64,000 nucleotides of DNA, taken from contig JAUICN010000004.1 in NCBI GenBank assembly GCA_030427835.1, positions 62,001 through 126,000 on the forward strand. Direction: 5' to 3'. The notes below the pieces were generated by a model, which was not told where the DNA came from, made no database searches, and was given only the letters and a program-made list of their open reading frames with translations. Both the position numbers and the translations under genes were made by a program. Of the stretch, positions 7,581-52,300 are shown in pieces. Each line of letters opens with the position of its first letter. The stretch's first letter is position 1. The stretch comes from Polyangia bacterium (GTDB taxonomy: Bacteria > Myxococcota_A > Polyangia > Polyangiales > JAUICN01).

Positions 7581-8696
7581 TCACGGTTGCCGAACCGCCA
7601 CGTCCTCCAGGGCCTGGGACACAAGTTGGTGGGCTTCCACGCCCTCCAAGTCTGCCTGGGGGGTGACCACCAGGCGATGGGCCATGGCCGCCACCGCCAC
7701 CGCTTTCACGTCATCGGGCACCGTGTATGCACGCCCCTCGAAAAGTGCCCGCGCCCTGGCCGCCCGAAGTAGGGAGAGGGAACCGCGAGGAGACACGCCC
7801 AGGTACACGCCAGGTTGGGAGCGGGTGTGGCGCGCCAAACGAACCACGTAGGCGCGCACGGCATCCCCCACATGCACCCGCGCCGCCAGGTGCTGCAGCT
7901 CCAGGGCCCGTTCCGGAGACAGGACCTGGTGAAGCGGCAGGGCCGTGCGTGCAGGTCCGGCGGTGGCGGGTCTTTCGGGGGTTGAAACAGGCGGCGTCGC
8001 GGAGGAGAACCTGTGCAACATCGTCACTTCTTCCTCCTCCGTGGGGTAACCCAGGACCACCCGAAAAAGGAAACGGTCCACCTGGGCTTCGGGCAGGGGG
8101 AAGGTCCCCGTCTGTTCCACCGGGTTTTGGGTGGCAAGCACCAAAAAAGGTTGAGGCAGCGGTTCCGTGGCGCCTTCGATGGTGACCTGGCCTTCCTCCA
8201 TGGCCTCCAGCAGAGCGCTCTGGGTCCTGGCGGGGGCGCGATTGATTTCGTCGGCCAACAGCACCTGGGTAAACACGGGGCCCAGGCGCAACGAAAACTG
8301 ACCATCCTTCGGTGAATAGACTGTGGTTCCGGTCACATCGGAGGGCAGCAGATCGGGCGTAAACTGGATGCGTCGAAAACCACAGCCCGCCGCAACGGAA
8401 AAGGCCTTCACCAAGGTGGTCTTTGCAACTCCTGGCACCCCCTCAAGCAATACATGGCCCCCGGCCACAAGCGCCATGGCCATCCATTCGGGAGCAGGGG
8501 TCGCTCCCACGTAGACCCGGCGTACCTCTGCCACGAGCGCTTGCAAATCCCGGCGCGCGTCGGTGGCCCACGCCTCATCTCCTTGGTTTTCCTGTGGGGG
8601 GTTCACATCCACTTTCGTCGGCTCCTTGGTCCCCGCGATATTGGGTACGCTCAAGTGCGGAGATACCTGTCTGGCAACCCCAGGGGCGGGGACCAC
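7581..8696 (-). CDS. MoxR-family AAA+ ATPase
   Basis: This is a 371-residue AAA+ ATPase of the MoxR family. Walker A is GVPGVAKTTL, Walker B is VLLADEINRAP, and the sensor 1 region is VLATQNPVEQTGTFPLPEAQVDRFLF, all classical MoxR landmarks. MoxR proteins act with vWA-domain partners in a chaperone-like way; the DUF58 gene directly downstream is the likely partner. The start chosen is GTG 8696, 9 bp after the DUF4350 stop. The first 45 residues are Pro-rich and poorly conserved, so a later start is possible. It is transcribed with DUF4350, DUF58 and rsmA. Confidence 0.92.
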   Translation of the reverse strand: MVPAPGVARQVSPHLSVPNIAGTKEPTKVDVNPPQENQGDEAWATDARRDLQALVAEVRRVYVGATPAPEWMAMALVAGGHVLLEGVPGVAKTTLVKAFSVAAGCGFRRIQFTPDLLPSDVTGTTVYSPKDGQFSLRLGPVFTQVLLADEINRAPARTQSALLEAMEEGQVTIEGATEPLPQPFLVLATQNPVEQTGTFPLPEAQVDRFLFRVVLGYPTEEEEVTMLHRFSSATPPVSTPERPATAGPARTALPLHQVLSPERALELQHLAARVHVGDAVRAYVVRLARHTRSQPGVYLGVSPRGSLSLLRAARARALFEGRAYTVPDDVKAVAVAAMAHRLVVTPQADLEGVEAHQLVSQALEDVAVRQP

Positions 8697-8705
8697 TGTA
8701 TCAGT

Positions 8706-10085
8706 TTATGGTGATCTGCGGACAGTAGACTGCTCCCACGACGGGCCCTGGAGCGTTGCTGTGAGATCCTCTAGCCGTTGTTCCATGGCATGCACACCCC
8801 GTTGGAATCGGCGGGTAGACAATACCCGGTTTCCAAACGTGCCACCCCTGGACAGCCGTTTCAGGCGCCCCAGGAGCCGCAACAGGGATCGGACCTGACC
8901 ACGGTCCACGCCCTGCTGCCGCAACACCTCTGCCAACCGATCGGTGGTGGAAGGAAGCGGGCATTCGGTAATCCTCAACAGATACAGCTCCACCTCCCGA
9001 ACATAGGTACAAAGCGCGCGGGTCATGGAGTTGGAAGCCCTGGGATCGGCCCCCAATCGGGCCAACAGTTCATCCGCCCGGGGTGCATGGACTCCCTCGG
9101 CCGTCATGTGTGGCCCCGGGATTTCCTTCGTAGGATCTCCACTGGGCCCAATGGGTGACGCCCCAGATGCTTGCTCCCCCGGGTCCCCCAGGGGCCGCCT
9201 TAGCAGTCCGAAGCTCCACGCCAACAGGCCCAGCAGTATCGCCCACAGCGCCAGGGCTCCGATTCGCATGAACCCGGGTTGGGCCAGGATCTGGCTCCAA
9301 TCCTGGCCGCGGGACCCCACACCAGCCCAACGTTCGCGCAGGGATCTCCACCGATCCGCAAGCGTCCAATCCTTGGCTCCGCGCACCCATTGTGTACCTG
9401 GGCCTGCCATCACCAACGGGTCACCCGGGTTGGGCGCAAGATACCGCAAAAGGGCCTCGGCAAGGCGTTCGTTGCCCCCAAAACCCATCATGGCGTTGAT
9501 GAAGAGGCTTGGGTCGCCACTGGCGACCAGGCGCCCCTTGCCCACCGCACCGGCCAATACCAGCGCCTCTCCCGACTCAAACGCGTACAACGCATTGAGG
9601 TGAGGGTGGATCAGTGTGGAAGGCTTGTTGGTGACGACCGCGGGCACTCCGTGGGTGAGCCCGTGGGGCATTTTTGCAAGTGCGATCCGAAGAAACGGCT
9701 GGCCTGCCACAAAGGAGGAGCGTTGGGGTGGCCCCTGTTGTTCAATCCGAAACCCCTTGAACGTTTGCGCGGCTCGCCCCTGATCGTCGGCGAGAAAGAC
9801 ACGACCCCCCCGCTCCAGAAAGCTCCGGAGCCCATGGGCCGGCAGGGGTGCACCTGGGGCCATCACGACCAGGCCGGCGCCATCGGCCATCTCTTCGAGG
9901 TTCACGGTGTGCCGGATCTCGATTCGAATCCCCCGGGCCTGGGCGGCATCTGCCCATTGGCTCAACCCCTGCCAACTCCTGTCGGTCACCCGGTACCGGA
10001 GTTCCGAGCCCCCGAGATCCTGCGCACCCACAGGGCTACTCTGTAGGTACAAACATACACCCACCCACAGCACAATTCGCCCCAT
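8706..10085 (-). CDS. DUF4350 domain-containing membrane protein
   Basis: The start ATG 10085 gives a signal peptide (MGRIVLWVGVCLYLQSSPVGAQ). Residues about 25-215 resemble the DUF4350/GATase-like periplasmic domain (LVVMAPGAPLPAHGLRSFLERGGRVFLADD; GKGRLVASGDPSLF). A membrane helix at about 280-298 (IGALALWAILLGLLAWSFGLL) precedes a cytoplasmic tail. Longer in-frame starts up to 10157 would hide the signal peptide. DUF4350 proteins are regularly encoded beside MoxR and DUF58 genes, and the order DUF4350-moxR-DUF58 is kept here. The molecular function is unknown. An envelope-assembly role for the trio is inferred from co-occurrence. Confidence 0.75.
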   Translation of the reverse strand: MGRIVLWVGVCLYLQSSPVGAQDLGGSELRYRVTDRSWQGLSQWADAAQARGIRIEIRHTVNLEEMADGAGLVVMAPGAPLPAHGLRSFLERGGRVFLADDQGRAAQTFKGFRIEQQGPPQRSSFVAGQPFLRIALAKMPHGLTHGVPAVVTNKPSTLIHPHLNALYAFESGEALVLAGAVGKGRLVASGDPSLFINAMMGFGGNERLAEALLRYLAPNPGDPLVMAGPGTQWVRGAKDWTLADRWRSLRERWAGVGSRGQDWSQILAQPGFMRIGALALWAILLGLLAWSFGLLRRPLGDPGEQASGASPIGPSGDPTKEIPGPHMTAEGVHAPRADELLARLGADPRASNSMTRALCTYVREVELYLLRITECPLPSTTDRLAEVLRQQGVDRGQVRSLLRLLGRLKRLSRGGTFGNRVLSTRRFQRGVHAMEQRLEDLTATLQGPSWEQSTVRRSP

Positions 10086-10200
10086 CACACCCCAACATAC
10101 ACCGGCACTGCGGCCTGGGAGCGAGGCTTCGTCGATAACGTAAGAATTTGATATCACAGAAGGTTTTCTCTACCCTGGGTAGATGAGTGGCGCGAGTCCA

Positions 10201-10228
10201 TTGCCATCCTAGACCAGGTTGTTATGAT
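10201..10228 (+). promoter_or_regulatory. Sigma-70-type promoter for the small acidic protein gene
   Basis: TTGCCA (10201-10206), 16-bp spacer, TATGAT (10223-10228): five of six matches to each consensus hexamer. It lies 24 bp upstream of the ATG at 10253, giving a short leader. The DUF4350 operon diverges from the same 167-bp gap. Confidence 0.6.
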
Positions 10229-10252
10229 GGTAGGTGAAAGGCGGAAAAGGCA

Positions 10253-10429
10253 ATGCTTCCCCCCTTCATTATTGATCAGATACGTAAACGCGAAGACAGT
10301 GTACGACCAGAGCGACCCCGTTTGGAGGTCCCGTTGAGTATTCCTGCACCCGAAGACATGGATGTTCCCAACGAGCATGCAGCCGACCCCGAAGAGAGGG
10401 ACCGCGGCATCATGATTATCGAGCTTTAG
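10253..10429 (+). CDS. Small conserved acidic protein (58 aa), MLPPFIIDQIRKRE type
   Basis: ATG 10253 to TAG 10427-10429 encodes 58 residues. The N-terminus is MLPPFIIDQIRKRED, the middle is Pro-rich (RPRLEVPLSIPAPEDMDVP), and the acidic tail ends DRGIMIIEL. I recognise this layout (MLPPFII + IRRRE, Pro-rich core, RG-hydrophobic-IEL terminus) from small uncharacterised proteins of myxobacterial genomes; that match is from memory and was not searched. A GGAAAAGG purine run lies just before the ATG and a good promoter at 10201-10228. There are no membrane segments. The short motifs at both ends look like docking peptides. It is divergent from the DUF4350-MoxR operon. The function is unknown. 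Confidence 0.75.
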   Translation: MLPPFIIDQIRKREDSVRPERPRLEVPLSIPAPEDMDVPNEHAADPEERDRGIMIIEL

Positions 10430-10467
10430 GCCCGGCGAAGTGCTCCGGGGGCAGAGTTCCTGTTGGG

Positions 10468-11415
10468 TTAGAAGACCTCACTCCAATGGCCCTGAAGCTC
10501 CTCTGCCGTAAACTGATCGGACTGGGCAAAGGCCCCCGTGGATTCCATGGATCGAAGGCCGTAGATTCGGGAGCCGGACACGCCAATAATTTCGCCATTA
10601 ACCAAAGCACCGGCCTCGGACATCAAAAACGAAACCAGGGGTGCCACGCTGCTCGGTGAAAGGGACCTGGGGGAGGTGCTTTGAAATACGGGAAGCTGTT
10701 CCGTCAGTCGGGTTCGAACCATGGGCGCGACCATATTGATGCGTAGGCCACGCCTCCGGAACTCCAGGGCGGCGCTCCGCACAAACCCCGCTAGCGCACC
10801 TGCCGCGGCGGCCTCCAGGGATCGCTGCATGGCCCCAAAAAAGCCCAGCGTGGAGCCCATAATGACGATGGAGCCACCGCCTTGAATCGGGCCCTTTTCC
10901 CCTCCCTGGGGGCCCGACATCATGCGGTTGGAGAGGGCAGTGCAAAGGTGGATGACGCCGGTCACATGGTCGTGCAAGAATTGCCCCACGGCGCTCGGAT
11001 CCAACCGGGAAACGGAGGATCGGTGACCGTAACCCGCACTTAGAACCGCCCCATGAAAGGCCCCCGTGGCCTGTTCGGCCTGTTCGGCCTGTTCGGCCTG
11101 TTCGGCCTGTTCGGCCTGTACCCGTACCTGTGCCTGTTCCTGTTGGGCTTGCGATGGTGCTGAGTGATCCAGCACAGGGCCCATGTCCGAAAGCGACCCC
11201 GCATCCACGGGCCAGGCCGTACAATCCACCCCCTGGGATCGCAGTCGGGTGCCTAGGGCGCGCACCATTTCCGCGTTCGTCCCTCGCCCATCCACGTCCG
11301 TTCCCCGATCCACCAGCAACAGTCGAAACCCCTGGCGGCCCAAACAGTCAGCCACCGCGGTGCCTATTCCGCCTGCGGCGCCCGTGATGAGAATGGGTGG
11401 TGCCGAGGGGCTCAT
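10468..11415 (-). CDS. SDR-fold protein with degenerate active site and a repeat insertion
   Basis: This is a 315-residue Rossmann-fold protein of the short-chain dehydrogenase family. The cofactor loop TGAAGGIG is intact (about 12-19) and the core strands follow (VLSAGYG; GSIVIMGST). Where catalytic enzymes have YxxxK this protein has SLEAAAAGALAGF, lacking both Tyr and Lys, and the NAG motif is SAG. It may bind NAD(P) without reducing a substrate. A low-complexity insertion (QAQQEQAQVRVQ plus five AEQ repeats) sits at about residues 90-115 and arises from a 9-bp tandem repeat at 11068-11119. It diverges from the giant regulator gene. The role is unknown; a regulatory pseudoenzyme is the simplest reading. 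Confidence 0.8.
   Translation of the reverse strand: MSPSAPPILITGAAGGIGTAVADCLGRQGFRLLLVDRGTDVDGRGTNAEMVRALGTRLRSQGVDCTAWPVDAGSLSDMGPVLDHSAPSQAQQEQAQVRVQAEQAEQAEQAEQAEQATGAFHGAVLSAGYGHRSSVSRLDPSAVGQFLHDHVTGVIHLCTALSNRMMSGPQGGEKGPIQGGGSIVIMGSTLGFFGAMQRSLEAAAAGALAGFVRSAALEFRRRGLRINMVAPMVRTRLTEQLPVFQSTSPRSLSPSSVAPLVSFLMSEAGALVNGEIIGVSGSRIYGLRSMESTGAFAQSDQFTAEELQGHWSEVF
11068..11119 (-). repeat. In-frame tandem repeat, 9 bp x 5.7, in the SDR gene
   Basis: Five exact copies of GGCCTGTTC (plus strand, 11068-11112) and a partial sixth encode a run of AEQ triplets. The uniformity of the copies implies recent expansion. Confidence 0.95.
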
Positions 11416-11595
11416 GGGCCAAAACCTTCCGTTGAGCTGGGAAAATAAACGCGATTACCTGAATCCACTGTCCACGGATAGCACAAATACCCCGTTGAAA
11501 CTGTCCCATGGCTACGGCGGAGGAGGTGGCACACAATGACCCATATGCAATATGTGCCGAAATGTGCTACAGTGAGCGTTTCCAAGGGATCTCCT

Positions 11596-14500
11596 ATGGC
11601 GCAGTTTGGTCACAGATATGAAGTGGTTCGGCCCCTCGGAAAGGGGGGGGCAGGCGGAGTGTTCCTGGTTCGAGACCGGCTGCGGGGAGGAGAGCAGGTC
11701 GCCCTCAAAGCCATCGATCGGTCCGGAGAAGCGGGGCCCGGCGAAACCATTCGGGCGAGTATTGAACGGGAATTCTCGGTTCTTTCTGCCCTGTCTCTGC
11801 CGGGAGTCGCGCCCGTGTTTGATTTCGGCACCCGAGTCGAAAACGGTGTAGAGCAGGTCTACTTTACCCGGGCCCATGTGATGGGCACTCCGCTGGACCG
11901 GTCGGTGGATGGAATGCCCATGGCCCAGAAATGGGGCCTCACGGCCAGTGTCTGTGCCACGGTAGCGGCTCTCCATCGGGCCAAGGTCGTGCACGGGGAT
12001 CTGAAACCCGCAAATATCATCATCGATGGCACAGGGGCACAGCTCATTGATTTTGGTTTGGCCCACAGCCATAGGGACCCTGCGGTCTGGGGCGGCACGC
12101 CCGCCTACATGGCGCCAGAACAATGGCGAGGGGCCTCCCCCAATCAGTTAACTGACGTGTATGCCCTGGCCGCCACACTTTGGCACCTTTGGGCCGGAAG
12201 CCCTCCCCCCGGACCTTCATCGACCGAATCGTCATCGACCGAACCACGATTGAACAGGGCCCCAACGGGTACTCCCGCGGACGTGGACCCACAAACGGCG
12301 GAGGTGTTGCGCGCCCTGCGAGCGGGGCTTGAGGAAGATCCCCTCAAGCGCTCACCCACGGTTGGGGAGTTGTGGGCGGGGATCCAACAGGCCGTCGTGG
12401 GCTGGACGGAAACACAAAAGAAATCGATTCTTGAAGATACCGCAACTCCGACAACGCCATCCTTTGTGCCCCCGTCACCCAGGCAGCTGGAAGATCATCT
12501 AGCGTGGTTGTTACCCCAACTCAGTGCACGACCCGCCAAGTCGGGCCAACCCGTCGTGGTTCGCCTGGCGGGGGCCGAGGGCAGCGGAAAAAGCACATTG
12601 CTGAGGCGCATCAAGTGGCATCTACAACTGAAGGGCGCACCGGTGATGGAGCTCCCCTCCTCGCAGGTTGTGGCGGAAGATGCCCGAGCATGGATCCAGG
12701 AGCAATGGAAGGTCCACCAGGGCGAACAGGCCGGTGCCTCGCCTTGGTTGTTGGTGGACGACGCCGACGCCCGGGACGGTGCGCTCGGTGCCTGGATCGA
12801 CAGTTTCCGCCAGGAACACGGTTTGGATTGTGTGGTGGCGTGTACCAACCCACGCACGGGCGCCGCGCCCTGGTTTGAGGACCGACGGGCCAATTCCCAC
12901 GGTGCACGTTCTACCGGTGAACATTCTATTGGGGAGAGTGCCCCCAGGGAGGGTGAGAGCTGGATGACGCTGCCTCCCTTGGGACTGGAAGCGGTCACCG
13001 AGCTTTGCGAGGAAGTGTTGGGACACCGGGATCATGAACTGGCCCGCGCCCTGCACCGTCGATGCGAAGGCAACCCCGGGCAGCTTGTGGGCGCGCTTGG
13101 GCAACTGGCGAGTCGACACGTGGTGACCGTGGAGGACGTGGAACATCTCGCCATGGAGTCTCTCGCAGACTCCCGTGCACGCACCCAAATACAAGCGCTG
13201 CCGCCCGAGCAACAGTTCCTCTTGCAGTACCTCCATCAGGTGTCGCTTCCTTTGCCATGGAACACCGCTTCGATTCTTTTGCAACGCCAGTGTGAAATAT
13301 CCGAGCCCCGCGCAGAACACCACCTGCAGCAGCTCCGTGATCGGGGGTGGATGGAAGTTCGAGCCCGTGACCGTGGGCAAGAGTGCATGGCAGCCCATCG
13401 CAGTTTTCCTGAAGCGGTCACGACTGAGATCCTCCAGGGCAGGGCCGTACAGGTACTGGCGGTGCTCAAGGAGCAAAAGCAGCTGCAGACGTTTCCCCTG
13501 CTGGCGGCCACCTGGTCCCTGCTTACAGGTGACATGTCCGTGGCCCTTGAATATTGCGCGCCCCTATTGGAGCAACTTGTGGCGCAACCGGGGCAAGTCC
13601 CTTCCCGCCAGTTGCAGGAGTTTCTCAACGTGTGGAATGGGCACGGGCCCTCCCTTTCATCCTCTCACCTTCCAACCCATGGCCGTGTGCTCCCATGGGT
13701 CCGGGTGGCTGCCCTGCAACATAGTCTTGGCCAATACGAAGGGGCCTCGCGGCTTCTGAAAGAAATCCTGGCCCAGGATCATGTGCCCCCAGGGGATCTG
13801 CGCCTCGCGCGATTGGAACGGGCCAAGGGTTTGTTGTCCCAGGGCCACTACGACGCGGCGGAGTCCTGCCTTGAGCAAGCCGTGGCGGACGCGGGTCCCG
13901 TCGACTCCGATTTTCTACCCCAATGCGCCCACGAGCTGGCGAAGGTGCACCTGCGCCGCGGTGACTACGCCCAGGCCGAAACCACAGCCTCCGAGGGATT
14001 GGCCAAGCTAGAACAGGGTGTGGCCAGCCAGGAACCGTCGAAGCTCACCGCGTTACAAGTCGGCCTGCAGATGGGCTTGCACACCACGCTGGGCACCGCC
14101 TCTAGCTATCGCCTCGATCACGATAGGGCGCTGGAGTATTTTGAGCGTGCCGCAGCCCTGGCCAGTACCCAGGGGACGTTGAGGCAACGCATGCAAGCCA
14201 TGGGGTTTCTGGCCTTTGGCCACCAGCGAGCGGGCAACCTTGAACAGGCCGGAAGTGCCCACGCGGCATGTTTGGATCTGGCCCAGCAAGTGGGCGACCT
14301 TGGAGCCGTGGCCACCTATGCCCTTAACCTGGGCACGGTCGAACACCTTCAACGTCATTTTGTTCAGGCGGAGCAGAGCTACCGCAAGGCCCTGCGATAT
14401 GCCCGCAAGCTTGAAAAAACATCCACCTGGATCGTGGCCCAAAACAACCTCGCAAAACTTCTTTGCGTCTGCGGTGCCCATCAACAGGCAACCCAGCTGG

Positions 14501-16953
14501 CCCAGCAGTCACTCGAACAGGCCCGGCAAGCGGGCCTGAAACCCGCCGCCGCCCAGGCCCTATCCCTACTCGGAGATGCAAGCCTTGTGGGCGAGCGCTA
14601 CCAGGATGCCGTTGTAAAACACGGGGAGGCCAGGGTTGCGTTTGAGCACTTGGAGCAGTGGGGAGAGGCTCTTGAATCCCGCTTGGACCGGATGGACGTA
14701 CAACTGCTGTTGTTGGAACAGGCGCCTGAGGAACAGTCCTCCAGCATCAAAGCGGCCCTGCGCGTGGATATTCGAAGTGCCCTGGAACGGGTCAAAGCCC
14801 ACCCAGTGGCGCCCGAAGTTCTCACCCATCTCCAGTTGACCCAATGGGAAATCCATCTGGCATGCGGGGATAGGGATCCGCTGCAGGCCGTGGAGCAACT
14901 CAAGGAGGTTCAGGGTGCAGAAGATCCGCTGAAACGTGCGCGCGCTCACTTCCTTGTTTCCCGGGCCCATCTGGAAGTCGACAATCAGGTTGCAGCGGCC
15001 AAGTACACTCGAATGGCGGTGGAGCAGTTGGAGGAGTTTGCACTCGCGCTACCTCCTTCTTACCGGGGCAGTTTTTGGCACCACCCGGTGCGGCGTCGAA
15101 TCCGCAAGAAGCTGCAAACGATGGCCCCCTCCCAATCCACCACAGCGGCCAGTCCCGCCATGGCTCGGCCTGGGAGTTCAGGCATGGAAACCACCATGCA
15201 CCATTGGACCCAGGAGGCAAAGAACCAACGCCTGCTGGAGATCCTAAAACAACTCGCCAGTGAGGACGACGTACAACAGTTGCTCCAACGTATCGTGGAA
15301 AGTGCTGTGGAACTGGCCGGTGCCGAACGGGGCTTTTTACTCCTGGTGGATGAGCAGGGAAAACTCTCGCCCCAGGTGGTGCACCAACGTACGGTCAAAC
15401 CCACCCAGGCCCACCTGGATTTCAGTCGCTCCGTTGCCGAATCGGTGCTCATTGACGGCGAACCGTTGTTGACGATGGATGCCCAGGGCGACCAACGGTT
15501 GAGTGATTATGTGTCCGTTCACGAGTTGATGCTGAAGTCCATCGCCTGCATTCCCGTGCGGGGGCGAACGGGAAACCGGGGTGTGCTCTACCTGGAGCAT
15601 CGGGTGCGGTCGGGCCGTTTCCAGGAAAACGAACTGGGCATGTTGTTGGCGTTCTCCGATCAGGCCGCCATCGCCATGGAGAACGCCACGGCCATGGCCG
15701 AAGCCGAGCGACGCAACGCAGAGCTGGCGCGCCTCAATCAGGAATTGCAACAGGCCCAACGGGACCTGAAGCAGCTACTCGTGGATCGCACCGACAAGTT
15801 GTCGCAGAGTCGCGAGGAACTGGACCGCCTGCGTGCGCGCACCACCCAAACCACAGGGCGCCATCATATGGTCGGACGAAGCGAGGCCATGAATCGGGTC
15901 TTCGCCATGATCGATCGGGTGGGCCCCCGGGATGTCCCCGTGGTGATTCACGGTGAAAGCGGCACAGGAAAGGAGCTGCTCGCCCAGGCGTTGCACGACA
16001 CGAGCGCCCGGGTCGATCAACCCTTTGTGGTGGTCAACTGTGCGGCCATCCCGGAAGCGTTGCTCGAAAGCGAACTCTTTGGCCACGTTCGGGGGGCCTT
16101 CACGGGAGCAAGCCGGGATCGGGCGGGCCTCATTGCCCAGGCCTCGGGAGGAACCCTGTTTTTGGATGAGGTGGGCGATATGCCTTCCAAGATGCAGGTG
16201 GATCTGCTGCGCGTATTGCAGAACGGCGAAATCACACCCGTGGGGAGCGACCGCGTCACTCAAGTGGACGTGCGCGTCATCGCGGCGTCCCACAAGCGAC
16301 TCGAGGACCTTGTAAAGCAGGGTGAGTTCCGTGAGGATCTATTCTACCGGCTCAATGTGGTGGAGATTGCACTTCCACCCCTGAGGGATAGGGAGGGGGA
16401 TCTTCCTCTACTGTGCGACCATCTGTTGGAGCGCATGGCCCACAAGCAGGGCACCGATCCCAAGGTGCTTTCTCCCGGAGCGTTGCAGTTGCTGGCACGG
16501 CACCCACTTCCTGGAAATGTGCGGCAACTGGAGCACCTCCTGATGAACGCGGCCATCATGGGAACAGGCGCCAAGATCCTTCCCACGGACCTGGCCCTCG
16601 GGTTGGGCGACGACACCGTGCGCGGACCTACCCTGGCCCCTGACGGTCGCGGCCCGAATGCGGATTCACTGGAGACCCTGGACATGGAGGTACCCCAGGG
16701 CCCTGACGGGGAGCCCATCCCGAGGGCGAGCACCGCGGCAGATTTCCAGAGCAACGAACGGGAACTCATGATCGCCGCCCTCAACCGCTGTGGCTGGAAC
16801 CGCGCCAAGGCCGCCCGACACATGGGAATGCCCCGCCGCACCTTCTACCGCCGCCTCAAGACCTACCAATTGCTCGATCAACCGGACACGGCTTCCCAGG
16901 ACAAAGCTTCCCAGGACACGGCTACCGAAGTGAGCGACGGCTCCCTGGAATAG
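11596..16953 (+). CDS. Giant regulator: Ser/Thr kinase - ATPase - TPR - GAF - sigma-54 activator
   Basis: A single chain of 1785 residues joins a whole signalling pathway. The order is: kinase domain (1-265; K38, HGDLKPAN with D135, DFG 152-154, APEQ 173-176); a P-loop ATPase with GAEGSGKST near 325; many TPR-like repeats (about 640-1190); GAF domain (about 1215-1365); a coiled coil; a sigma-54 AAA+ domain (about 1425-1655; GESGTGKE Walker A near 1453, intact GAFTGA near 1501, LFLDEVGDM); and a C-terminal Fis-type helix-turn-helix (NRAKAARHMGMPRRTFYRRL). The intact GAFTGA loop means it can drive sigma-54 promoters. The catalytic loop has HGD instead of HRD. ATG 11596 has AAGGG at a good distance; in-frame ATGs at 11536 and 11545 lack one. 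Serine-rich and ASQD repeats (15-bp periods) occur near 12209-12240 and 16891-16920. Confidence 0.93.
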   Translation: MAQFGHRYEVVRPLGKGGAGGVFLVRDRLRGGEQVALKAIDRSGEAGPGETIRASIEREFSVLSALSLPGVAPVFDFGTRVENGVEQVYFTRAHVMGTPLDRSVDGMPMAQKWGLTASVCATVAALHRAKVVHGDLKPANIIIDGTGAQLIDFGLAHSHRDPAVWGGTPAYMAPEQWRGASPNQLTDVYALAATLWHLWAGSPPPGPSSTESSSTEPRLNRAPTGTPADVDPQTAEVLRALRAGLEEDPLKRSPTVGELWAGIQQAVVGWTETQKKSILEDTATPTTPSFVPPSPRQLEDHLAWLLPQLSARPAKSGQPVVVRLAGAEGSGKSTLLRRIKWHLQLKGAPVMELPSSQVVAEDARAWIQEQWKVHQGEQAGASPWLLVDDADARDGALGAWIDSFRQEHGLDCVVACTNPRTGAAPWFEDRRANSHGARSTGEHSIGESAPREGESWMTLPPLGLEAVTELCEEVLGHRDHELARALHRRCEGNPGQLVGALGQLASRHVVTVEDVEHLAMESLADSRARTQIQALPPEQQFLLQYLHQVSLPLPWNTASILLQRQCEISEPRAEHHLQQLRDRGWMEVRARDRGQECMAAHRSFPEAVTTEILQGRAVQVLAVLKEQKQLQTFPLLAATWSLLTGDMSVALEYCAPLLEQLVAQPGQVPSRQLQEFLNVWNGHGPSLSSSHLPTHGRVLPWVRVAALQHSLGQYEGASRLLKEILAQDHVPPGDLRLARLERAKGLLSQGHYDAAESCLEQAVADAGPVDSDFLPQCAHELAKVHLRRGDYAQAETTASEGLAKLEQGVASQEPSKLTALQVGLQMGLHTTLGTASSYRLDHDRALEYFERAAALASTQGTLRQRMQAMGFLAFGHQRAGNLEQAGSAHAACLDLAQQVGDLGAVATYALNLGTVEHLQRHFVQAEQSYRKALRYARKLEKTSTWIVAQNNLAKLLCVCGAHQQATQLAQQSLEQARQAGLKPAAAQALSLLGDASLVGERYQDAVVKHGEARVAFEHLEQWGEALESRLDRMDVQLLLLEQAPEEQSSSIKAALRVDIRSALERVKAHPVAPEVLTHLQLTQWEIHLACGDRDPLQAVEQLKEVQGAEDPLKRARAHFLVSRAHLEVDNQVAAAKYTRMAVEQLEEFALALPPSYRGSFWHHPVRRRIRKKLQTMAPSQSTTAASPAMARPGSSGMETTMHHWTQEAKNQRLLEILKQLASEDDVQQLLQRIVESAVELAGAERGFLLLVDEQGKLSPQVVHQRTVKPTQAHLDFSRSVAESVLIDGEPLLTMDAQGDQRLSDYVSVHELMLKSIACIPVRGRTGNRGVLYLEHRVRSGRFQENELGMLLAFSDQAAIAMENATAMAEAERRNAELARLNQELQQAQRDLKQLLVDRTDKLSQSREELDRLRARTTQTTGRHHMVGRSEAMNRVFAMIDRVGPRDVPVVIHGESGTGKELLAQALHDTSARVDQPFVVVNCAAIPEALLESELFGHVRGAFTGASRDRAGLIAQASGGTLFLDEVGDMPSKMQVDLLRVLQNGEITPVGSDRVTQVDVRVIAASHKRLEDLVKQGEFREDLFYRLNVVEIALPPLRDREGDLPLLCDHLLERMAHKQGTDPKVLSPGALQLLARHPLPGNVRQLEHLLMNAAIMGTGAKILPTDLALGLGDDTVRGPTLAPDGRGPNADSLETLDMEVPQGPDGEPIPRASTAADFQSNERELMIAALNRCGWNRAKAARHMGMPRRTFYRRLKTYQLLDQPDTASQDKASQDTATEVSDGSLE
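12207..12240 (+). repeat. In-frame 15-bp period repeat (SSTE) in the regulator gene
   Basis: The 12-mer TCATCGACCGAA recurs with a 15-bp period, giving SSTESSSTE in the linker after the kinase domain. Confidence 0.7.
16891..16920 (+). repeat. In-frame tandem repeat, 15 bp x 2, at the regulator C-terminus
   Basis: GCTTCCCAGGACAAA (16891-16905) and GCTTCCCAGGACACG (16906-16920) encode ASQDK and ASQDT just after the DNA-binding helix-turn-helix. Confidence 0.85.
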
Positions 16954-49931: not shown

Positions 49932-50083
49932 GATCGGATCCTGGGACGGCATGGAGGCCAATATGACACCGATCGCCCAGGGCACCCGGAGTAACCCCCC
50001 TCCGAAGCCCACGGGGGTCTTCCCCACGGCTGCCAGAGGGAACCATTGCCGTGGTTTGCGCCCCCTGCTACGTGGCTTGCAGC

Positions 50084-52300
50084 ATGGCGACTCCATTTCA
50101 ATACCTGCGGCTTTTGGCTCCCCTTTCCGTTCGCAACCTAGGGCAAGGGAATCTGCCGCGCAGGGTTCTACCGCGCAGGGTTCTACCGCGCAGGGTTCTA
50201 CCGCGCAGGGTTCTACCGCGCAGGGTTCTACCGCGCAGGGTAGGGTGGTGCTCCCTGCTCATGGCGGTGGCCTACCTGGGAACCCCACCCATGCCCGCCC
50301 AGGCACAAACCGGGGCCGCTCCCAATCCATCCTCCCCCGGCGAGTCCGACGCAAATGGCCGGTCCGTTACGACCGATCCCAATACAAACGACACAGAAAC
50401 GACAGACACAGATACGGCCGGTACCCATGAGACAGGCACAGGCCTGGAAAACGGGGAAGAGACGGAAGAGGGCGCGCAGCTTCGGGCCCCGTCCATGGAG
50501 GAACTCTGGATCGACAGCAATCTAGGTGAACAGGGTTCGGCGGATCAGGACCTGGCGGCCTCCATTGCACTGGAGCCCATGGAGGAAATCGAACCCATTG
50601 AACCAGGAGGTGCAGACGCGGCCCTGGACGCCATGACCGCGGGCGAAGCTCCCCAGGGATGGGTGGAACCCCGGGCTGTGGTGGACCTGGACGGATATTT
50701 CCGAGTCCGGGGCGAACTGTGGGATCGATTCTGGCTGGGCAGGGAACCCGTACCGCCGGCCACCACCGATGCGCCCTTCGATCGTTTTCGCCCCCTCGCC
50801 CGCGGAACCACCCCCCAGGGCGGCTGTGGTGAAGACGGCGATGTGAACTCCACCAATGCCTGTGGGGGCAACACCCAGCGCTTCGCCAACATGCGACTGC
50901 GCTTGGCGCCCACCCTCACCGTGAGTGACGACGTGCGGGTCCATATGATGGTGGATGTCTTTGACAACATGGTGCTCGGCTCCACACCGGACGGCCTGGC
51001 CTATGGGTTCGGCAGCGACGGCATCGAGCAGGTCACGGGTACGGGCCGTTCCCCCATTGACTCCCTGAGTTTTTCACAGGCACCCGCAGGAGCCTACCGC
51101 AACTCACTTCAGGACAGCGTGCGGGTGCGCCGTGCCTGGGCGGAGGTCACCAACCGGGGCCTGGGGCAATTGCAGTTTGGTCGCATGGGGTTCCACTGGG
51201 GCCTGGGCATGTTTGCCAACGGCGGCGAAGGGCTGGATGCGGACTACCAGACCGACGTGGATCGTATTTTGGGCGTGACCAAGCTTGCCAACCTTTACTG
51301 GTTTGCGGCCTATGACTTTGCTTCCGAGGGCTTCATTCAACAGAACCTCAACGACCCCCAGGCCTTTCCCGTGGATGCCGGCCAGCGGGATGACGTGAAC
51401 CAGTTCACCCTTGCGGTGGCCAAGCAAACGGACCCCGAAACCGAAGAGGCCACCCTGGAGGACGGGGGCTGGGTTCTGGATGGCGGGCTGCTGTTGCTAC
51501 TTCGCAATCAGTTGCTTACGGCCCAGGGTGTGACCGACCCCACCGGTAGCAATGCCGATGCCGCGGCCGAGTTGATTCGACGGGATGCCAAGCTTTACGT
51601 GCCGGACCTGTGGTTTCGTGCCTTGCACGGAAACCTTCGCATTGAGTTTGAGGCCGCACTGTTGATGGGAAGCATTGAGAACACCTCCAATGATGCCTTC
51701 GCCGAAGACGAGTGGACCGTGCGCCAGTTCGGTGCGGCCCTGGAGACAGAATACCGGCTTGCGGACAACAAACTGAGCCTGGGTTTTCACACCGGTTACG
51801 CCACCGGTGACCCGGATGTGGAAGGCCTCGTGAACCCATCCGGGCTCGCAAGCCAGGTCGATGACACCCGGCTCTCCACATTTCGATTCCACCCCAACTA
51901 CCGCATCGACCTCATCCTGTGGCGCAACATCATGCAGCAGATTTCAGGTGCCTATTATTTCAAGCCCAGCATCAGTTACGACTTCCTGAAGAGTGACTTC
52001 GGCCAATTGTTTGGAGTGCGCACCGACATCATCTACAGCCGTGCTTCCTCCCCGGTGCAAACCTGGGGCAACGACCCCAACCTTGGCCTTGAGCTCAACG
52101 CCACCCTCTACTACCGCAGCGAAGACGGCCCCGAACTGGAAGACGGCTTCCACGCCATGCTCCAGTACGGCGTACTCTTCCCCATGAAGGGCCTGGGCTA
52201 CCTAGAAGACGACAACGGCGTCGGAGAATTCCCCGACGGAAACAATCCCGATTTAAGCAACGCCCAAATCCTACGCCTAGTCATGGGCGTCCAGTTCTAG
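50084..52300 (+). CDS. Large outer-membrane beta-barrel protein with repetitive signal region
   Basis: This is a 738-residue protein from ATG 50084. The first 45 residues contain (LPRRV)x6, so the signal-peptide n-region is very long and strongly basic. A hydrophobic core WCSLLMAVAYLGTP and AQAQ cleavage site follow. An acidic Thr/Glu-rich linker precedes a large domain with alternating beta strands (LGQLQFGRMGFHWGLGMFANGGEG; AALETEYRLADNKLSLGFHTGYATGD), ending ILRLVMGVQF with terminal Phe. This fits an outer-membrane barrel, possibly an alginate-export- or porin-like channel. The stop is followed by hairpin elements. No family is firmly recognised. Confidence 0.75.
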   Translation: MATPFQYLRLLAPLSVRNLGQGNLPRRVLPRRVLPRRVLPRRVLPRRVLPRRVGWCSLLMAVAYLGTPPMPAQAQTGAAPNPSSPGESDANGRSVTTDPNTNDTETTDTDTAGTHETGTGLENGEETEEGAQLRAPSMEELWIDSNLGEQGSADQDLAASIALEPMEEIEPIEPGGADAALDAMTAGEAPQGWVEPRAVVDLDGYFRVRGELWDRFWLGREPVPPATTDAPFDRFRPLARGTTPQGGCGEDGDVNSTNACGGNTQRFANMRLRLAPTLTVSDDVRVHMMVDVFDNMVLGSTPDGLAYGFGSDGIEQVTGTGRSPIDSLSFSQAPAGAYRNSLQDSVRVRRAWAEVTNRGLGQLQFGRMGFHWGLGMFANGGEGLDADYQTDVDRILGVTKLANLYWFAAYDFASEGFIQQNLNDPQAFPVDAGQRDDVNQFTLAVAKQTDPETEEATLEDGGWVLDGGLLLLLRNQLLTAQGVTDPTGSNADAAAELIRRDAKLYVPDLWFRALHGNLRIEFEAALLMGSIENTSNDAFAEDEWTVRQFGAALETEYRLADNKLSLGFHTGYATGDPDVEGLVNPSGLASQVDDTRLSTFRFHPNYRIDLILWRNIMQQISGAYYFKPSISYDFLKSDFGQLFGVRTDIIYSRASSPVQTWGNDPNLGLELNATLYYRSEDGPELEDGFHAMLQYGVLFPMKGLGYLEDDNGVGEFPDGNNPDLSNAQILRLVMGVQF
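50153..50242 (+). repeat. In-frame tandem repeat, 15 bp x 6, in the signal-peptide region
   Basis: Units of CTRCCGCGCAGGGTT start at 50153, 50168, 50183, 50198, 50213 and 50228, the last slightly diverged. Each encodes LPRRV. Copies 2-5 are identical, indicating recent slippage. Confidence 0.97.

Follow-up and report, generated by a model that had tools for sequence, protein, structure and literature searches.

A small protein conserved in Myxococcota and near-universal in one order: probably a docking microprotein, mostly disordered and transcribed from a predicted promoter of its own

Why should a protein of only 58 residues be kept by nearly all genomes of a bacterial order, and what could so short a chain do in the cell? 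The question is raised by a small reading frame on the forward strand of the window, by which we mean the whole stretch of 64,000 nucleotides analysed here. The stretch comes probably from the phylum Myxococcota and the order Polyangiales (GTDB ranks), below simply the order. The frame (10253-10429, ATG start, TAG stop included) translates as MLPPFIIDQIRKREDSVRPERPRLEVPLSIPAPEDMDVPNEHAADPEERDRGIMIIEL and is a real, strongly conserved protein-coding gene. Its start codon is unambiguous, because an in-frame TGA lies shortly upstream and no ATG, GTG or TTG occurs in frame between this stop and the ATG; among 82 family members the start codon is ATG in 79 and GTG in three. The signals that precede the gene are as follows.

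10201-10206, forward strand: -35 hexamer TTGCCA, with an equivalent element at 16-nt spacing in most loci of the order
10220-10228, forward strand: extended -10 element, TGT followed by TATGAT (10223-10228), located from the sequence and a promoter scan
10235-10237, forward strand: in-frame stop codon TGA, read from the sequence, which fixes the start codon of the gene
10237-10244, forward strand: Shine-Dalgarno-like AAAGGCGG, one mismatch to AAGGAGG, 8 nt before the ATG, read from the sequence

The first two elements compose a predicted sigma-70-type promoter (TTGCCA, 16 nt, TATGAT, with the TG extension; 10201-10228) that agrees with the consensus at 10 of 12 positions, and a promoter scan of 801 bases returned one site against 0.2 expected from shuffles. 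Transcription from this site would give a leader of about 17 nt. The ribosome-binding site is imperfect and only fair, and an exact-word scan of upstream regions did not count it as one. Judged by agreement with the consensus, a promoter sequence of this type is conserved in most loci of the order. The 110 nt upstream of the gene were scored against the 12-base sigma-70 consensus in 37 such loci, the window included, and at least 9 positions agreed in 25 of them, compared with 11 of 1850 random 110-nt windows taken from the same loci; the best match had a spacer of 16 nt in all 30 loci scoring at least 8, tied with 15 nt in two. Shuffles of each upstream stretch provide a stricter control, since random windows are mostly coding, and by hand count no more than 5 of 100 shuffles equalled the observed score in 30 of the 37 loci. 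The seven without a promoter beating its shuffles were L011, L012, L052, L054, L055, L062 and L063. Outside the order, at least 9 positions agreed in 8 of 36 loci and in 22 of 1800 random windows; a promoter-like site is absent directly upstream of the gene in L084, L088, L098, L099, L105 and L106, where the gene may be transcribed from the gene upstream.

The distribution of the protein was surveyed in stages. All species genomes were first scanned for exact matches to octapeptides from the 58-residue protein, and of 220 pattern matches 16 were confirmed as homologues; their contigs carry myxobacterial, Myxococcota or deltaproteobacterial names, Sandaracinus sp. (L006) among them, and their identity to the window protein is 44-61% over the best segment and 47-66% in the first alignment (A1). 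A profile of these first homologues matched 197 of the 377 phylum genomes scanned and missed three genomes of the order (G286, G335 and G373). A2, a profile widened to 82 members, matched 158 of the 189 phylum genomes that are at least 95% complete, including some weak matches, for example in G400 (E 0.0044) and G239 (E 0.0059). By hand count of these near-complete genomes, the gene is present in 88 of 89 genomes of the order, the sole miss being G286, in 29 of 36 of the remainder of the class, and in 41 of 64 of the phylum outside the class, the last figure resting on the assignment of 11 misses to the outside group because the genome list is sorted by kinship. A further sample of relatives from the order, which overlaps the first and includes the window's own genome, had the gene in all 38 genomes; among genomes from the class of G007 with a completeness of 90% or more, it was present in 28 of 31. 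The small protein is near-universal in the order. The 23 of 64 near-complete genomes outside the class that have no A2 match (hand count) indicate either that the protein is not indispensable throughout the phylum or that it has diverged there past the reach of the profile. The window's genome has one copy; second, divergent copies occur in 7 of the 88 matching genomes of the order (hand count) and in 9 of the 12 genomes of family f25.

The specificity of A2 was checked on 13926 open stretches (919 kb) of 77 loci, namely the window, L002-L017 and L047-L106, the 30 loci L001 and L018-L046 being left out. Exactly one stretch per locus reached 27 bits in all 77, which were chosen because they contain a match, so that the check measures false positives and not prevalence; none of the reversed stretches of these loci reached 27 bits, the best scoring 8.4.

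Selection on the gene was estimated by the method of Nei and Gojobori for 18 close pairs. The dN/dS ratio was 0.02-0.29, and at most 0.14 in 16 of the pairs, which are not 18 independent tests as some share members, and among which dS exceeds 1 and is unreliable in five and the pair L055/L062 rests on four changes. Nonsynonymous change is strongly suppressed, that is, the gene is under strong purifying selection. This bears on the possibility that the frame is a leader peptide or a piece of regulatory RNA and not a working protein, as its shortness, its position close to the promoter and the brief predicted leader might suggest. Conservation lies at the amino-acid level with dN/dS far below 1, the next gene downstream in the window is on the opposite strand, and no Rfam family reached its gathering score in 9900-10700; we regard such a role as extremely improbable. 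The proposal made by the sequence-only reading, a conserved small protein with relatives across the phylum and a promoter of its own, is thus upheld by the homologues in 16 named contigs, by the phylum-wide profile matches and by the promoter survey, and the two findings that it had named as speaking against itself, a lack of homologues and a lack of synonymous-site constraint, were not what the searches and the dN/dS ratios returned.

A function might be sought in the neighbours. The small gene is divergent from a DUF4350-MoxR-DUF58 operon and convergent with a short-chain dehydrogenase gene, and the two nearest members of the operon are the following.

7581-8696, reverse strand: MoxR-type AAA ATPase (PF07726, E 8.7e-63)
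8706-10157, reverse strand: DUF4350 protein, the divergent neighbour (PF14258, E 8.2e-19)

The genes of the window were compared by tblastn with 36 loci of the order and 36 loci from outside it, each with its flanks; those from L047-L106 were hand-picked for spread, some are of the same genus and not independent, some of L002-L017 were placed in the order by organism name and similarity only, and the second copies L053, L061 and L101 and the duplicate L102 were dropped from the count. MoxR lies divergently upstream of the small gene in 30 of the 36 loci of the order. In two more (L055 and L062) the small gene occupies the same spot, flanked by the dehydrogenase and DUF4350 genes and still beside MoxR, but points the other way, and no sigma-70-like promoter was seen for these flipped genes. 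MoxR is absent from the remaining four, L002, L013, L057 and L017, the last having only 510 upstream bases, and the genes on the side opposite MoxR vary among the loci of the order. Within the stretches fetched around the small gene, neither MoxR nor DUF4350 was found in any of the 36 loci outside the order. L002 and L013 are among the closest in sequence to the window protein (66% and 58% identity), yet they are without the DUF4350-MoxR neighbourhood; both keep the promoter although their neighbours differ from those of the window.

The neighbours of the small gene differ by clade, also among the loci outside the order. The MoxR arrangement, with 30 of 36 loci inside and none of 36 outside, is the neighbourhood of one order and not a property of the family, and clade-specific neighbours argue for a stand-alone function of the small protein. 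The persistence of the arrangement within the order is notable, and it is the reason for considering the protein as a partner or regulator of the operon, for instance an adaptor of the MoxR chaperone. The divergence from this operon that had first hinted at a shared regulator or function is confirmed as a feature of the order, but the hint itself is weak; besides the loci without MoxR listed above, the second copies L053, L061 and L101 also have none alongside, and we judge a role tied to the operon very unlikely.

No gene was found to keep one position beside the small gene in every clade, in a comparison whose gene calling was incomplete and missed several of the window's own genes. Two broad single-linkage clusters of neighbours do extend over several clades, at scattered places and on scattered strands: one in 26 loci (12 outside the order), which by eye are FHA/sigma-54-type regulators, and one in 15 loci (two outside the order), which by eye are protein kinases. 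Several genes within 6 kb of the small gene in loci outside the order appear, by eye, to be translation genes (TruB, RbfA, ribosomal proteins, TilS and ThrRS); they were seen in L085, L093, L096 and L097, in L084, L087, L088, L098, L099 and L106, and in L077 and L079. L079 also has a 436-residue neighbour (+341 to +1648 of the small gene), presumably resembling gliding proteins of the AgmX/PglI type, which has relatives in L071, L078 and L080-L082 and no Pfam match at E 0.0001.

Three other features of the window were recorded. The short-chain dehydrogenase gene (10468-11415) contains at 11068-11119 a perfect 9-bp tandem array of GGCCTGTTC, 5.8 copies, which encodes an EQA repeat and in which slippage by whole units would preserve the frame. 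A 15-bp tandem array (50152-50241, 6 copies, 98% matches) lies in the N-terminal parts of a 749-residue frame (50051-52300) and of an overlapping 166-residue frame; in the longer one its LPRRV repeat precedes what by eye is a probable signal peptide. A protein of 1805 residues (11536-16953) combines protein kinase, TPR repeat, GAF, sigma-54 activator and Fis-type HTH domains.

Column statistics over the 82 members of A2, from which L075 (no recognisable N-terminus), L061 (a second copy) and duplicates were left out, show three low-entropy segments in a fixed order and at near-fixed places relative to the termini, separated by high-entropy linkers of variable length.

10253-10294, forward strand: segment 1, residues 1-14, MLPPFIIDQIRKRE, a predicted amphipathic helix, from conservation and a helix predicted at residues 5-16
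10316-10333, forward strand: segment 2, residues 22-27, PRLEVP, from column conservation in the 82 members
10403-10426, forward strand: segment 3, residues 51-58, RGIMIIEL, the hydrophobic, strand-like C-terminus, from column conservation

In segment 1, L2 and an aromatic residue at position 5 are present in all 82 members, I6 in 79, I7 in 80 and I10 in 76, and a charged R.RE(E) stretch follows the hydrophobic part. Segment 2 (P.LE.P) has P22 in 73 members, L, I or V at position 24 in 79, E25 in 67 and P27 in 81. Segment 3 (consensus RGVVIIDL) begins with R51 (73 members) and G52 (76 members) and continues with hydrophobic residues and an acidic one. The sequence-only reading had described two docking peptides, conserved ends around a variable middle rich in proline and acidic residues. 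Both ends are indeed conserved and a tether joins them, but the middle contains segment 2, which had been overlooked, and the number of conserved segments is three. The linker between segments 2 and 3 is rich in proline, acidic residues and arginine and has 15-35 residues (median 21), as measured for all members but one, the 81 in which a permissive pattern located segment 2.

Segment 3 is followed by 0-6 residues in 80 of the 82 members (none in 34, one in 22), these distances being counted by reading to the first stop, because both A1 and A2 contain L002 and L005 without their C-terminal ends. L005 has 8 residues beyond the segment. In L002 (5001-5453) no stop follows GVVIIEL and the frame continues for 93 residues, which is either real or an assembly fault; the similar L013 stops right after a motif of the same type. 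With these tails in L002 and L005, the family does not have a free C-terminus in strictly every member.

Structure prediction by AlphaFold2 gave the same picture for the window protein and a distant member. For the window protein (82 aligned rows) the sole element was a helix at residues 5-16 (mean pLDDT 69.9, pTM 0.22), and for L079 (38 rows) a helix at residues 3-22 (mean pLDDT 69.9, pTM 0.24). The models fit a protein that is mostly disordered when alone; their low confidence is no proof of disorder, and a fold adopted only in an oligomer would give the same picture. The protein might accordingly be imagined to fold by self-association, the helix and the strands L.LELPL and GVVIIDL pairing between copies into a small homo-oligomer with an activity of its own, such as binding of nucleic acid or a ligand. 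By eye, two of the three segments resemble hydrophobic strands, and a model of the monomer cannot reveal an oligomer. Against this, strand pairing is absent from both models and the stretch between the putative strands varies from 15 to 35 residues, and we think the oligomer unlikely. Another possibility is that the helix binds the membrane, the first ten residues being hydrophobic on one face through the conserved L2, F5, I6, I7 and I10, while the remainder, a tail in the cytoplasm, brings one partner to the envelope. What adjoins the helix, however, is a stretch rich in both Glu and Arg (consensus RRREEE..R) and not an anchor rich in Lys and Arg; we consider membrane attachment decidedly unlikely. 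No signal peptide was seen by eye.

Of the readings considered, the likeliest is that the small protein is mostly disordered, has a promoter to itself and acts by docking, as we infer from its sequence features. A strap that docks at several points is the best reading of a protein that is tiny, apparently singly transcribed in the order, and built of three fixed segments joined by free linkers. The amphipathic N-terminal helix (L2, F5, I6, I7 and I10) would occupy a hydrophobic groove of a partner, the C-terminal RGVVIIDL would join the sheet of a partner as an added beta-strand, and the central P.LE.P might make a third contact, with the linker of variable length serving as the strap between contacts. 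So built, the protein could staple one complex, or bridge two proteins, of the core machinery of the cell. The full form of this proposal is put forward tentatively: a cytosolic docking protein with little or no fold, expressed constitutively under its own promoter, which staples a single complex or links two proteins.

A gene present in 88 of 89 near-complete genomes of the order, under strong selection and with a promoter conserved in most of the loci examined there, should have a basic role, yet nothing corresponding to it turned up in four family libraries or among the PDB sequences. A bolder version, which we hold to be doubtful, would make the protein a core microprotein characteristic of the phylum Myxococcota. 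It would be made constitutively, staple a universal machine at three points (the ribosome, RNA polymerase, or a complex of division or of the envelope) and serve a need that other phyla do not share, and its small size would explain why the family libraries lack it. The docking protein proposed here could reveal what a lineage-specific strap contributes to a core machine.

The window protein has no match in Pfam, NCBIfam, PHROGs or PADLOC, and the 82 members gave in the same libraries only stray matches of one or two members per family (best E 0.0074). Against the PDB the A2 profile matched three chains up to E 10, the best being 6y07_A ('sohair') with E 0.1 over 19 positions. Searches by tblastn against plasmids returned 2 records for the window protein, 12 for L094 and none for L088, and against phages none for L079; no homologue was accepted, the best plasmid match (E 0.1, 62% of the query) lying within an annotated transporter gene and the seven records that cover more than 80% of the query appearing only at E 4-5. 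A literature search of open-licence papers found none on the 58-residue protein. The protein is new in the sense that it is absent from Pfam, NCBIfam, PHROGs, PADLOC and the PDB sequences.

Pup and UBact are small disordered protein modifiers that end in GG followed by E or Q (in UBact, R-G/E-E/Q). The small protein recalls them in its length of about 60 residues, its predicted disorder, its conserved C-terminus and its helical part. It differs in that the 82 members are without a C-terminal GG[EQ] and end in the hydrophobic RGVVIIDL. The Pup ligase family PF03136 had no match up to E 0.001 in the window's own genome, the one genome searched, in a search whose control, run on 14 known genomes, matched one of them, Corynebacterium glutamicum. 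An identity with Pup or UBact was rejected on account of the wrong C-terminus and the missing ligase match.

Two other parallels are of a general kind. The catalogue sORFdb (PMC11796252) holds unnamed families of bacterial small proteins, which the present family resembles as a conserved small frame with no model in the curated family libraries. Intrinsically disordered microproteins that act through short linear motifs are the subject of a review (PMC13276856), and with these the likeness is one of kind, docking of the small protein being putative; what they share is tiny size and short conserved segments set between variable linkers, the very arrangement found in the 82 members.
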